From Methanobacteriota archaeon (GTDB lineage Archaea; Halobacteriota; Methanosarcinia; Methanosarcinales; Methanosarcinaceae): 64,000 bases of DNA. The stretch's first letter is position 1; every line of letters starts with the position of its first letter. This document shows positions 54,192 to 59,488 of this stretch, in pieces. The notes below the pieces were generated by a model that saw nothing but the letters and a program-made list of their open reading frames with translations, was not told the origin of the DNA and did no database searches. The stretch is taken from assembly GCA_016841265.1 (NCBI GenBank), contig JAENZL010000004.1, positions 50,108-114,107 of the forward strand. Reading direction: 5' to 3'. The translations under genes and the position numbers were made by a program.

Positions 54192-54445
54192 CAGCAGAGT
54201 TGCGGCTCTGCAGTGCGCGGTCCTTTTCGCTCGCCCGAATTGCGCTTCGGGAGCACGCGTCCTTTTCGCTCGCTGCGCTCCCTCAAGAGGACTAGAAACC
54301 TGTATTTGAATAAGTTATTCCAAGAGGACTGAAAACCGGTGTGGGGATAAGTTTGGGGAATGAAAAACAGGGCAACCGGAATACCGTATCAAATGTGTCC
54401 TGTCACGTTTGCGAAGCAAACGGCTTTTTCCGGAATGAGATCCAG
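54192..54445. repeat. terminator hairpin and dispersed repeat, copy A
   Basis: GCAGAG-TTGCGG-CTCTGC (54194-54211) forms a hairpin right after the radical SAM stop. Then comes GCTTCGGGAGCACG...CTCCCTCAAGAGGAC (about 54250-54285) and a unit containing AAAACAGGGCAACCGGAATA and CCGTATCAAATGTGTCCTGT (54363-54405). Both parts recur at 55781-56010 on the other side of the AAA ATPase gene. No gene is seen up to 54503. Confidence 0.8.
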
Positions 54446-55688: not shown

Positions 55689-55743
55689 TAGTTAAATTTG
55701 ACGATATTTAAATTTAACTAAGAAATTAGTAGTTAAATTTGAC
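55689..55743 (-). promoter_or_regulatory. inverted-repeat operator of the AAA ATPase gene
   Basis: TAGTTAAATTT (55689-55699) and AAATTTAACTA (55710-55720) are a perfect 11-bp inverted repeat, and a further direct copy of AGTTAAATTTGAC lies at 55730-55743. They start 6 bp from the gene's start codon and would overlap its promoter. A similar sequence (GATATTCAAATTTAACTAC) recurs at about 59391-59410, upstream of the KAP gene. Confidence 0.5.
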
Positions 55744-55780
55744 TAACCAACGTGAAGCAAAATAACTGATGAAAAATAAT

Positions 55781-56040
55781 AACCGGCGTGGAGGATGAGT
55801 TAAGGAAATGAAAAACAGGGCAACCGGAATACCGTACCAGACGTGTCTCACCCGAGTTCCGCTTCGGGAGCACGGGGTCCTTTTCGCTCGCTCCACTCCC
55901 TCAAGAGGACGAAAAAGCGGTGGAGGGGATCAGTTTTGAGATTTAAAAACATGGCTGCAGGAATACCGTATCAAATGTGTCTTGTCACGTTTGTGAAGCA
56001 AATGGCCTTTCCAATGCAGAACCCAAAAATTGACACGCAA
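55781..56040. repeat. dispersed repeat, copies B and C
   Basis: A first segment (55781-55840) matches GAAAAACAGGGCAACCGGAA and its surroundings in copy A, a second (55855-55915) matches the CTTCGGGAGCACG-to-CAAGAGGAC segment, and a third (55920-56010) again matches the GGAATACCGTATCAAATGTGT unit. The order is rearranged relative to copy A, as if the unit had been duplicated and trimmed. No gene is seen from 55683 to 56047. Confidence 0.75.
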
Positions 56041-56047
56041 GAAGCTA

Positions 56048-56449
56048 CTAACAACGGCTAGCCTGAAGCGCATTCAAAGAAGTCGGCTTCGTAACCGAAA
56101 TCCGGGCAAGCTGCATATTATTGCAGATAATGTACGGCGGAATCCCATCTTTCTTGCTCTCTTCTCCCCTCCACTCTTTAAGCACCTTGAACAAAGGCCA
56201 GTCAGCATCGGTAAGTATTTCCTTATACCCCTCTCCCTTCTTCGCTGCCTTTTCCACACCCTGCTTTACCTGCCCCGGAACAGAAGAAGCCCGGTATTCC
56301 GCAAGCACCGTCCAGAAAAACTCCCCTTTCCTTTCAAAAAAATTGCTCTCCCACCGCAGCACCTCCTTATCAGCCAGAAAACCGGACATTGCCGAATCAG
56401 GGAAACTTTCGCTTTTCTCCGAATACTTTACGGTGAATATTTTCAACAT
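56048..56449 (-). CDS. HRDC-domain protein of the DGR accessory type, C-terminally truncated
   Basis: A 133-residue protein. The N-terminal LADKEVLRWESNFFERKGEFFWTVLAEYR (in parts) and the C-terminal DWPLFKVLKEWRGEESKKDGIPPYIICNN, QLARISV and PTSLNALQA match the HRDC-containing accessory proteins found with diversity-generating retroelements. Intact members continue after LxxLxxI with a GIGKxKxxxYG stretch; here the frame ends in SRC immediately after NALQA, next to the dispersed repeat, so the last third of the HRDC domain appears lost. I chose the ATG at 56449. It is downstream of the KAP-lectin gene on the same strand. Confidence 0.7.
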   Translation of the reverse strand: MLKIFTVKYSEKSESFPDSAMSGFLADKEVLRWESNFFERKGEFFWTVLAEYRASSVPGQVKQGVEKAAKKGEGYKEILTDADWPLFKVLKEWRGEESKKDGIPPYIICNNMQLARISVTKPTSLNALQASRC

Positions 56450-56597
56450 GATGGATCTTCCAGATTTTATATTAATTGTCACGTGCGGGGCTCAGCACCT
56501 CAGGCTCGGCGGCTTCGCACGCTTCGAGCCTTCGGGCTTCGCCGGGGTTAGTTATTACATCCATTGTAAAGTGGTAAAGTGGTAAAGTGGAAGGTAG
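56450..56597. other. GC-rich hairpin region downstream of the variable gene
   Basis: The 148-bp spacer between the KAP-lectin stop and the HRDC gene holds a GC-rich hairpin cluster at 56479-56545 (GGCTTCGCAC-GCTTCGAGCC-TTCGGGCTTCGCC) and three copies of TAAAGTGG (56570-56592). Hairpins just after the variable region assist retrohoming in studied DGRs. No A-rich template copy of the variable region is present here. Confidence 0.45.
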
Positions 56598-56725
56598 TTA
56601 CGGTTTCCTCAGAAGACGGAAGCCAACGTAGTAGACGCGGTCGTCGGGGTCGAGCCCAGAGCGGGAAGCAGACCGGCAGTGCCTGGCGTCGCTGAACCAG
56701 CTGCCGCCCCGTAAAACACGCTTGG
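56598..56725 (-). other. candidate DGR variable region
   Basis: From RVLRGGSW to the stop, the positions that vary in this fold are mostly NNC or NNT codons: TTC AGC GAC after the Trp, CAC in ARHC, and TCC, TCT, CTC, GAC, GAC, GTC, TAC, TAC, GTT in the following loop. Adenine-specific mutagenesis of AAC/AAT template codons would give this pattern. The region ends in an unvaried GGCTTCCGTCTTCTG stretch, where an IMH-like site would sit. No template repeat occurs in this window. Confidence 0.5.
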
Positions 56726-59114
56726 AGCTATCTCCATCTTCCCAAGCACTACCATCAGGAGGAGCACCTTCATAATTACCATGATATTTGTCCTGAACCC
56801 ATTCCCAGACATTACCATGCATATCATAAAGACCCCAAGGATTGGGCTTTTTCTGGCCTACTGGGTGAGTACTGCCCTCTTTTCGAATCTTATCAATATT
56901 TTGATTCCATTCTTCAGAAGTCGCATAACCACTATACCAAGCATAATCCCCGAGTTTTGACTCGTCATCCCCGAAAGAATACTTTGTATTTGTTCTGGCA
57001 CGGCAGGCATATTCCCATTCAGCTTCAGAGGGCAAACGGTAATTATCAGTGCCTTTATTGAGTTTGTTTATAAACTCCTGAACATCATCCCAGGAAACAG
57101 AATCAACAGGCAGATTATTGCCTTTGAAATGGGAAGGATTACTGCCCATGACTTTTTCCCACTGTTCCTGAGTAACCGGGTATTTACCAAGGTAAAAAGG
57201 ATTTTCGATATTTACATTATGGACTGGCTTTTCATCGTCATACTCATTTGACCCCATCATGAAATCTTCTGCAGGGATCGGAATGAATTCGATTCCATCT
57301 ACAGTAATAGGCGAAAGCCCGAAAGTGCCTCCTTCAGGAGGTGCAACCACAGGTGAAATCTGCAACAACTTGCTAAAATCAAGACCTGAAAGGGTATAGT
57401 TAGCTTTCTCTTCTGAGAGATTACCCTCTTCTACACAGCCGTATTTCAATAAGCCGATTAACTTTTCATCTTTGGTCCACTTTTTCAGGTATTCATTTTC
57501 GTTATCTTCATTTCCTAGCTTCAACGCATATTCCTGTAACTGGTCGAGAAGCTTACTGTTTGAAACGAGAGCTGAAATGAGTAAGTTCCACTGTATGCTT
57601 ATTGCCACGAATTTTGCAAGTTTTTTGCAGTTCCACATATTTTCAGGATCTGTATCTTCGCCATAACAAAAAAGGCCCGTATTGTATCCTATAGTCCTCT
57701 GAAAACGGAACTGATTAATGAACTGTTTTATCCGACGAGGATTATTATCCAGAGCAGGAGCAACCATTTCCAAAATTATTTTTGAAGTTTCAAAATCTTC
57801 CACACAATCCTTATAGTTCCGGATTTCCTGCTTATTTGATTCTGTTACAACATTATTGGAATCATCTGTTCCTGTTTCTTGTTCGTTATTTTTATTCAGA
57901 GAGGATTCGACATCTCCTTCAGGAGATTTATCAGGGGCAGAATCTTCCGATATACCTGATTTGTCCACGGGTTCAGATGATTTAGAGGGAGATTCGCTTT
58001 CATCGAAGGATGTTAAAAATTTTAAAAAATCGACGCTTTTTGGGCTTGGAACTTTAAAAGGAAGCTGAATAAATTTTTCAATATAGTCATCCCCGTATTC
58101 AAGTCCTTCGACATCCAAGTATCCGATAACTTTTTCATTTTTAGCCACTAGTCCTGCAGAAATGACTTTTCTGTCCATACCTATGGAAAAATAAACATTT
58201 GTGTCATCAGAGATCATTAGGTTTAGCGCCTGCATGAGTTCAGCAGCTTTTGGAACTTCACACCGGTCGAGGTCATCAACAAAGACATAAACTCTTGAAC
58301 TTCCGGCGTAGGACTCAATTATCTTGCCGAAATCAGAATGAAAATGCTCTATGAAAGATATGTGTTCTTTGTAATTGGGATTAGATACAAATTTACTGAA
58401 ATTAAAAGGGTTCCCAACCACATCTTTAATATCTTTACCAACATACAATATCGGAAGTATAGGAGCTATAATTTTAGTCAACGTTATCAGAAGACTACCA
58501 GATGATCCATCTATAGAATACGAAGATAAAAACACCATAAACTTTGGAATAGAATAATCGATAAAAAACCAAACTGCGAAAATAAATAAAACGATGTGAG
58601 TAAAAATTGAATTTTTACTTTTCCATTTAAATTCAAGTCTTAGAAGCCTCAATTTTAATTGTGCCCACAGTCGCCGCTCCCAGGAAAGCTGCTCTGATAA
58701 CTGCTCCATGAAATGAAGTGCAAAAGCAGCCCATAACTCGTCTTCTTTCTCATATCTCCAGCAGTTGAACCATACAGCAAAATATTTCTTTTTAGGAAAT
58801 AAAGACTCCCAAAATCCACTTCCCGTTATTTCAGAGTTAGTTTCAATATCAATATGACCATTAGCCTCTATTGTTCCAAGGTTGTCGGTTTCTAAATCGT
58901 TTAGTTCTCTAATACGATCTTTCAGTTGTTTCATGAAAGAAGATTTACCGCACCCCCACTGCCCCTCAATAGAAAGAGTGATTGGAGGTTTCGTGCCTTC
59001 GGCAGTAAGAAACTCTGCGATAGCCTCGACGTAAGGTTTGAATCCAAGTATATCTTTCTCCGCCGCAACATCATTTAAACATTCAAACGGAGATTTCGAC
59101 TTTTCGCCTGCCAA
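56598..59114 (-). CDS. membrane KAP-family NTPase fused to a C-type-lectin/FGE domain
   Basis: An 838-residue protein. Residues 20-290 are a KAP P-loop NTPase: Walker A GQWGCGKSS (51-59), two membrane helices between the motifs (about 170-188 and 207-226), as usual for KAP, and Walker B VYVFVDDLDRC (275-285). An acidic linker (about 369-430) follows. Residues about 600-838 are an FGE-sulfatase/C-type-lectin fold (GSNEYDDEKP, YPVTQEQW, RLPSEAEWEYACR, YDMHGNVWEW, RVLRGGSWF, GFRLLR). This fold end is the usual target of diversity-generating retroelements. Start is a TTG. The protein may sense a ligand through the lectin end and signal through the NTPase. Confidence 0.88.
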   Translation of the reverse strand: MAGEKSKSPFECLNDVAAEKDILGFKPYVEAIAEFLTAEGTKPPITLSIEGQWGCGKSSFMKQLKDRIRELNDLETDNLGTIEANGHIDIETNSEITGSGFWESLFPKKKYFAVWFNCWRYEKEDELWAAFALHFMEQLSEQLSWERRLWAQLKLRLLRLEFKWKSKNSIFTHIVLFIFAVWFFIDYSIPKFMVFLSSYSIDGSSGSLLITLTKIIAPILPILYVGKDIKDVVGNPFNFSKFVSNPNYKEHISFIEHFHSDFGKIIESYAGSSRVYVFVDDLDRCEVPKAAELMQALNLMISDDTNVYFSIGMDRKVISAGLVAKNEKVIGYLDVEGLEYGDDYIEKFIQLPFKVPSPKSVDFLKFLTSFDESESPSKSSEPVDKSGISEDSAPDKSPEGDVESSLNKNNEQETGTDDSNNVVTESNKQEIRNYKDCVEDFETSKIILEMVAPALDNNPRRIKQFINQFRFQRTIGYNTGLFCYGEDTDPENMWNCKKLAKFVAISIQWNLLISALVSNSKLLDQLQEYALKLGNEDNENEYLKKWTKDEKLIGLLKYGCVEEGNLSEEKANYTLSGLDFSKLLQISPVVAPPEGGTFGLSPITVDGIEFIPIPAEDFMMGSNEYDDEKPVHNVNIENPFYLGKYPVTQEQWEKVMGSNPSHFKGNNLPVDSVSWDDVQEFINKLNKGTDNYRLPSEAEWEYACRARTNTKYSFGDDESKLGDYAWYSGYATSEEWNQNIDKIRKEGSTHPVGQKKPNPWGLYDMHGNVWEWVQDKYHGNYEGAPPDGSAWEDGDSSKRVLRGGSWFSDARHCRSASRSGLDPDDRVYYVGFRLLRKP

Positions 59115-59488
59115 AAGAATTTAGCCCCATTTTTAGTTCAGTTCCTCGAATAACCTGCGCACAAATTTGTGAGAAAACAAGTTTTTGATCAATGTATTCC
59201 GAAGAGTATCAATATTGTTAAATTGTTTACTGGCAAGCTGTATAAATATTTATTGAAATATCCGGATGACTGCCAGATATCATAAATTGATATTCACAGC
59301 CCCTGTTTTCAACCAGATCTTATTGTGCCCTGTGCAAAAGCCACTATGCAAAAAAAGAAATGAATGGAGTGTTTGAGGATTATTTAAATTCAACGATATT
59401 CAAATTTAACTACGAATTTAATCGTCAATTATAACTAATTACTCCTCAAACGGTCCAGAAACCTGCATAAACTCCCTCCGGGCATTTT
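59115..59488. other. intergenic region upstream of the KAP gene
   Basis: No gene. CGATATTCAAATTTAACTACGA near 59389-59410 resembles the operator of the AAA ATPase gene at 55689-55720. TTGTTAAATTGTTTACTGGC and AT-rich sequence at 59215-59255 may hold the KAP promoter on the minus strand. Confidence 0.4.

Follow-up and report, generated by a model that had tools for sequence, protein, structure and literature searches.

The locus at 56043 to 59114 of the window (the whole 64,000-nt stretch of contig JAENZL010000004.1 that was analysed) is very probably a decayed diversity-generating retroelement (DGR): an ancestral cassette suffered a deletion into the leader of its template repeat (TR), the target gene remained intact under purifying selection, and its variable repeat (VR) is now frozen. 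A DGR remnant composed of a target and a truncated HRDC gene, with reverse transcriptase (RT) and TR lost, had been proposed in a first-pass annotation, and we retain that reading because TR and VR differ in an adenine-specific manner, the gene order recurs in relatives, a deletion scar was found and the stem following the VR covaries. The features of the locus and its border are as follows.

56598..59114, minus strand: DGR target (variable protein), a KAP NTPase-FGE/C-type-lectin fusion of 838 aa with a TTG start (ORF; Pfam; dN/dS)
57705..59042, minus strand: KAP P-loop NTPase domain, residues 25-470, with Walker A GQWGCGKSS and a DDLDR motif (Pfam; motifs read from translation)
56607..57290, minus strand: FGE-sulfatase/C-type-lectin-fold domain, residues 609-836 (Pfam)
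56608..56732, minus strand: VR, 125 bp (comparison with the TR of congener G001)
56503..56530, minus strand: post-VR hairpin, 6-bp stem GGCTCG/CGAGCC and 16-nt loop, likely a DGR target-site element (conservation, covariation, DNA fold)
56048..56482, minus strand: HRDC-type DGR accessory gene, truncated, with translation likely beginning at ATG 56449 and the domain lost after LNALQ (Pfam and homology)
56043..56063, minus strand: deletion scar, TR leader and first TR bases joined to the HRDC fragment, GGCTAGCCGTTGTTAGTAGCT (match to leader consensus)
55851..56010, plus strand: interspersed repeat adjoining the scar, outside the DGR (29 genome-wide matches)

Residues 25-470 of the 838-aa protein matched KAP_NTPase (E 1.8e-33) and residues 609-836 matched FGE-sulfatase (E 1.1e-53) in Pfam, which together with the ORF agrees with the initial description of a KAP NTPase carrying a C-terminal FGE/C-type lectin. 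Two hydrophobic stretches in the KAP domain were read from the translation as putative membrane segments. As in DGR targets, the VR lies inside the C-type-lectin/FGE domain at the C-terminus. The RGGSW...GFR-type C-terminal motif is common to FGE domains across the whole genome, so a lectin/FGE C-terminus alone is not diagnostic of a DGR; the adenine pattern is the proof.

The window's own TR is gone, and past activity at the locus was judged via the TR of the congener G001. Compared with the TR of the syntenic G001 locus, the window VR showed 22 differences, 19 of them at TR adenines (p about 3e-10; this and the other adenine p-value count mismatches as independent draws). Three differences fell outside adenines, the window VR being the same as the non-coding G001 TR at 87 of 90 non-adenine positions. 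Between window and G001, dS was 0.17 in the VR, 0.75 in the adjacent FGE part and about 0.7-0.9 in the remainder of the two KAP-FGE genes. The low VR dS and the 87/90 match are as would be expected of DNA overwritten from a TR. Because VR dS is low and its dN/dS is 1.6, against 0.30 for the KAP part and 0.23 for the constant FGE part (both compared with the G001 KAP-FGE protein), the window target gene appears to encode a constrained protein whose tail was probably written from a TR of G001 type. Invariance of the lectin tail would have spoken against a DGR; the tail differs at the template-adenine sites.

A search of the genome with the target-gene end revealed a TR on contig 63 (C63:6367-6491), with a further FGE gene lying about 200 bp upstream of it. 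This TR, whose translation is in the usual TR style, differs from the neighbouring VR (C63:6043-6167) at 17/125 positions, 17/17 at TR adenines out of 34 A in total (p about 6e-12). The cassette (G000:C63:6043-6592, L034) carries a structured RNA after the TR, and no RT was found nearby or in the genome. This genome did once have a DGR, and the contig 63 scars look recent. The first-pass annotation had suggested looking for an in-genome copy of the window VR that differs only at adenines; the contig 63 TR, which was the best copy, differs at 34/125 positions, 21 at adenines and 13 elsewhere. Because of these 13 non-adenine mismatches, it is not the window VR's own template. DGR-derived targets are marked by VR changes at the adenines of a TR, and such changes were seen with both templates (19/22 for G001; 21/34 for contig 63).

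DGR targets adjoin an accessory gene (Avd or HRDC), which here is the truncated HRDC gene. Truncation is evident because the HRDC match (E 2.3e-10) covers profile positions 4-48 of 68 only and stops at the extreme C-terminus of the gene; intact DGR HRDC relatives are about 160-168 aa long. The fragment is 67% identical to the HRDC of a Methanolobus DGR and 71.5% identical to that of the archaeon LFW-280 DGR, and the profile and these homologs uphold the original call of a truncated HRDC accessory gene. Its frame breaks after LNALQ and then reads on as GGCTAGCCGTTGTTAGTAGCT, a 21-nt stub of the leader and TR 5' end. This sequence has 2 mismatches to the leader consensus, matches once in the 64 kb and was found in 0 of 100 shuffles. 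The same leader lies directly before the TR in contig 63, G001, G008 and archaeon LFW-280; in LFW-280 it reads ACAAGGGTAGCGGTCATT, apart from the RT stop. Since the HRDC fragment runs straight into the leader and 5' stub, this locus has lost by deletion the end of HRDC, Avd, RT and almost the whole TR. Elsewhere, fragments from the 5' part of HRDC were seen joined to the TR-downstream element at G000:C24:65821-65943 and at a 3.21-Mb site in G001 (G001:C1:3213021-3213146); these two relics apparently share one deletion junction across both species.

The post-VR element is conserved after VRs, with stem variants GGCTCG/CGAGCC, GGTTCG/CGAACC and GGCCCG/CGGGCC between loci. The stem, picked by eye beforehand, covaries (77% of cells paired, a value reached by 0/500 shuffles), and the DNA fold of the hairpin gave a z of -2.7; RNAalifold over the entire post-VR alignment found little. 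A hairpin or cruciform downstream of the VR is expected of a DGR target, and covariation and fold together predict one here. In BPP-1 such a structure after the VR is needed for retrohoming (PMC3240598), and the window stem occupies the same place after the VR. The other side of the system also has a structured element, an RNA of about 115 nt located 3' of the TR, for which a covariance model was built from family members and LFW-280. In three bacterial DGRs left out of the model (L102, L103 and L106), it matched immediately 3' of the TR. The RNA was found in 9/111 family genomes, among which only Methanolobus has the DGR RT. It was not found in the window with the covariance model (best chance match E 0.53).

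DNA resembling TR/VR or the TR flank was found in 11/111 family genomes. Methanolobus psychrotolerans YSF-03 (G044; NZ_MBKP01000045, L066/L101) has a complete DGR, its parts arranged as target, HRDC, Avd, RT and TR. Its RT bears the motifs IGNLTSQ and YMDD, and 17/17 TR/VR differences are at adenines. This RT is 68% identical to that of an uncultured archaeon and 57% identical to that of an Aminicenantes bacterium; movement of the RT between domains is suggested. The Methanolobus DGR shares with the window an FGE-ended target, the HRDC, the post-VR region, the TR leader, the TR sequence type and the family; it differs in that Avd (assigned by PHROGs), RT and TR are present and the target has something other than a KAP NTPase at its N-terminus. 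The order FGE target, HRDC, (Avd), RT and TR was found in about 20 further loci, from bacteria and the uncultured archaeon LFW-280, and nearly all of their TR/VR differences are at adenines (27/27 in LFW-280). That RT and TR normally come after HRDC, as had been stated from the window alone, is therefore true of Methanolobus and of most related FGE-HRDC DGRs.

In G001 the syntenic site, bounded by a HEAT-repeat gene and by radical-SAM/ribosomal-protein genes, is occupied by two targets, the first KAP-FGE and the second caspase-FGE, together with a TR. Between this TR and the caspase-FGE target there are 21 differences, 21/21 at adenines (L064 7957-10340). The first G001 VR differs from the same TR by 18 mismatches, 14 at A and four non-adenine, and may already be decaying or may have been written from another TR. 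A truncated second TR was noted 3' of the KAP-FGE gene at about 7383 in L064. In G083 (L065 8247-8635) a truncated target end is fused directly to TR-like sequence and the 3' RNA element; this fusion, at the window's chromosomal site, is probably a relic of VR-TR recombination.

An autonomous functional DGR has a DGR-type RT and a nearby TR; no such RT was found in this genome, and of the TR only the 21-nt stub is present at the window locus. The RVT_1 domain was not found in the 3.65-Mb, 97%-complete draft genome (an RT could sit in a gap), and no relative of the DGR RT was found there. The same RVT_1 model scored a genuine DGR RT at 69.9 bits as a positive control, and the lack of an RT noted in the first-pass annotation was thus confirmed at genome scale. 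RTs of three congeners were rejected as DGR RTs, being of group II intron type (QGG..SP) or retron-like. The other family RT matches in the loci that were read were rejected as well: they are of QG/LG...SP type where the motif is present, the SQ type being that of Methanolobus only, and in the match at locus L082 no motif was found. No close DGR RT was found among the 111 family genomes outside Methanolobus, no TR match in the phage DNA collection, and no relative of the Methanolobus RT among viral contigs. Absence of a DGR RT from close relatives had also been named as evidence against a DGR; the family does have one, in M. psychrotolerans, but none was found in the genus.

We propose that the ancestor carried a cassette of KAP-FGE target, hairpin, HRDC, Avd, RT and TR. 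In copying the TR RNA, the RT would have put in random bases wherever the template has an adenine; the resulting cDNA would then have taken the place of the VR, which lies at the gene's 3' end, altering ligand-facing loops in the lectin domain of the KAP NTPase. A deletion that began inside HRDC, after LNALQ, and reached the TR leader, perhaps by way of a short CAGG homology, would have taken Avd, RT and the last part of HRDC. Also missing are the body of the TR and the 3' RNA element. The target was kept intact by purifying selection, its VR now frozen.

Three other explanations were weighed against such decay in place. It is highly improbable that no DGR was ever involved and that an ordinary FGE protein happens to have an unrelated HRDC gene for a neighbour. 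KAP and FGE are both common domains, and the RGG.W...GFR-type C-terminus is general in the FGE domains of this genome, but the adenine-specific TR/VR relations and the TR-leader scar contradict such a coincidence. Furthermore, HRDC matches longer than short fragments occur in 2/111 family genomes, and the one besides the window's lies within the complete Methanolobus DGR. Alternatively, recombination or transfer could have brought in a cassette that had decayed beforehand, so that the gene pair was broken on arrival. The target-HRDC remnant is flanked by 58-nt AT-rich imperfect direct repeats (55689-55746 and 59381-59438, 79% identical), and dS of the KAP-FGE pair is about 0.8 against 0.28 for the neighbouring radical-SAM gene. 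However, the same site holds a KAP-FGE target and TR in G001 and a TR remnant in G083, and DGR parts there therefore predate the window lineage; we consider arrival in a broken state unlikely.

It is also quite unlikely, by our estimate, that the DGR is still active, with an RT (and TR) that lies elsewhere, whether in a gap of the assembly or on a virus or plasmid, acting in trans to rewrite the window VR. Trans-acting DGRs with RT-less loci were reported in Thiohalocapsa PB-PSB1 (PMC10907252), and contig 63 and G001 have adenine-only TR-VR pairs in genomes where no DGR RT was found (single-contig in the case of G001). Against this stand the negative RVT_1 and viral-contig searches and the 13 non-adenine mismatches of the sole TR found in the genome. 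A frozen VR in a decayed DGR remains the preferred reading.

One leader of about 80 nt is common to contig 63 and the two G001 cassettes; it lies between the post-VR element and the TR, where complete systems carry HRDC, Avd and RT. The contig 63 TR and the G001 TR differ at 16/125 positions, and since the RT-less leader is shared, the arrangement is older than the divergence of contig 63 and G001. The contig 63 VR and the second G001 VR equal their own TRs at every non-adenine site. The shared leader and these clean pairs together suggest that retrohoming went on after the cassettes had lost their RT, with an RT acting in trans that is since gone or unsampled; alternatively, the same deletion may have happened independently more than once, or the cassettes may have undergone exchange at a later time. 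The chances seem to us evenly divided as to whether Methanosarcinaceae have RT-less mini-cassettes (target, hairpin, short leader, TR and structured RNA) that were hypermutated in trans after losing their own RT and that outlived it. The genome may have lost its own RT at the window locus.

No methanogen DGR was found in the literature searched. The DGRs of DPANN archaea and of the ANME virus ANMV-1 belong to other lineages. They have in common with this locus an archaeal setting and C-type-lectin targets (PMC5006420). Bacterial NTPase (KAP included) and peptidase-domain proteins with DGR-diversified lectin ends are described as putative antigen sensors within conflict systems (PMC10907252, PMC7159879). 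By domain match, the 838-aa protein has the KAP NTPase with C-type-lectin end typical of NTPase conflict/defence sensors, and by analogy it is plausibly a membrane NTPase sensor of that kind. The clade 5 DGRs of Thiohalocapsa PB-PSB1, for which degenerate loci and trans action were reported, resemble the window in their targets with an NTPase and a C-type-lectin end (KAP in clade 5D), in degenerate loci that miss parts and in repeat-driven decay (PMC10907252). Thiohalocapsa is bacterial, however, and keeps an intact locus per class, unlike this genome, in which no RT was found. In BPP-1 the TR lies before the RT, whereas it follows the RT in the intact relatives; the BPP-1 target is a phage receptor-binding protein, and Avd is the only accessory. 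TR-to-VR adenine mutagenesis, the hairpin after the VR and an accessory locus (avd or HRDC) are shared (PMC3240598). Thiohalocapsa had already provided reports of DGR loci that degenerate, of action in trans and of KAP-type targets; what is new is the occurrence in a methanogen clade and the TR-VR pairs that lack an RT.

DGR surveys usually start from the RT, and RT-less targets and TR-VR pairs are overlooked as a result. This methanogen clade shows repeated RT loss with retention of diversified sensor genes, and its TR-VR pairs are clean enough to date the last activity. Complete system, RT-less cassette and orphan target form a natural series, its complete end represented by a relative in culture, in which one can ask whether hypermutated immune-like sensors are kept after loss of the mutator and whether archaeal DGR RTs act in trans.

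Rearranged repeats had been noted where TR and RT would be expected. Repeats are present, with further copies of the interspersed repeat at 54234-54292 and 54321-54428, but the sequences at 54234-54428 and 55788-56010 were rejected as a decayed TR or RT: with 29 matches they represent a genome-wide repeat that is not part of the DGR. This repeat adjoins many of the DGR relics. Single-site relatives of the 58-nt repeat lie beside the HEAT gene in G001 and beside an AAA gene in G083.
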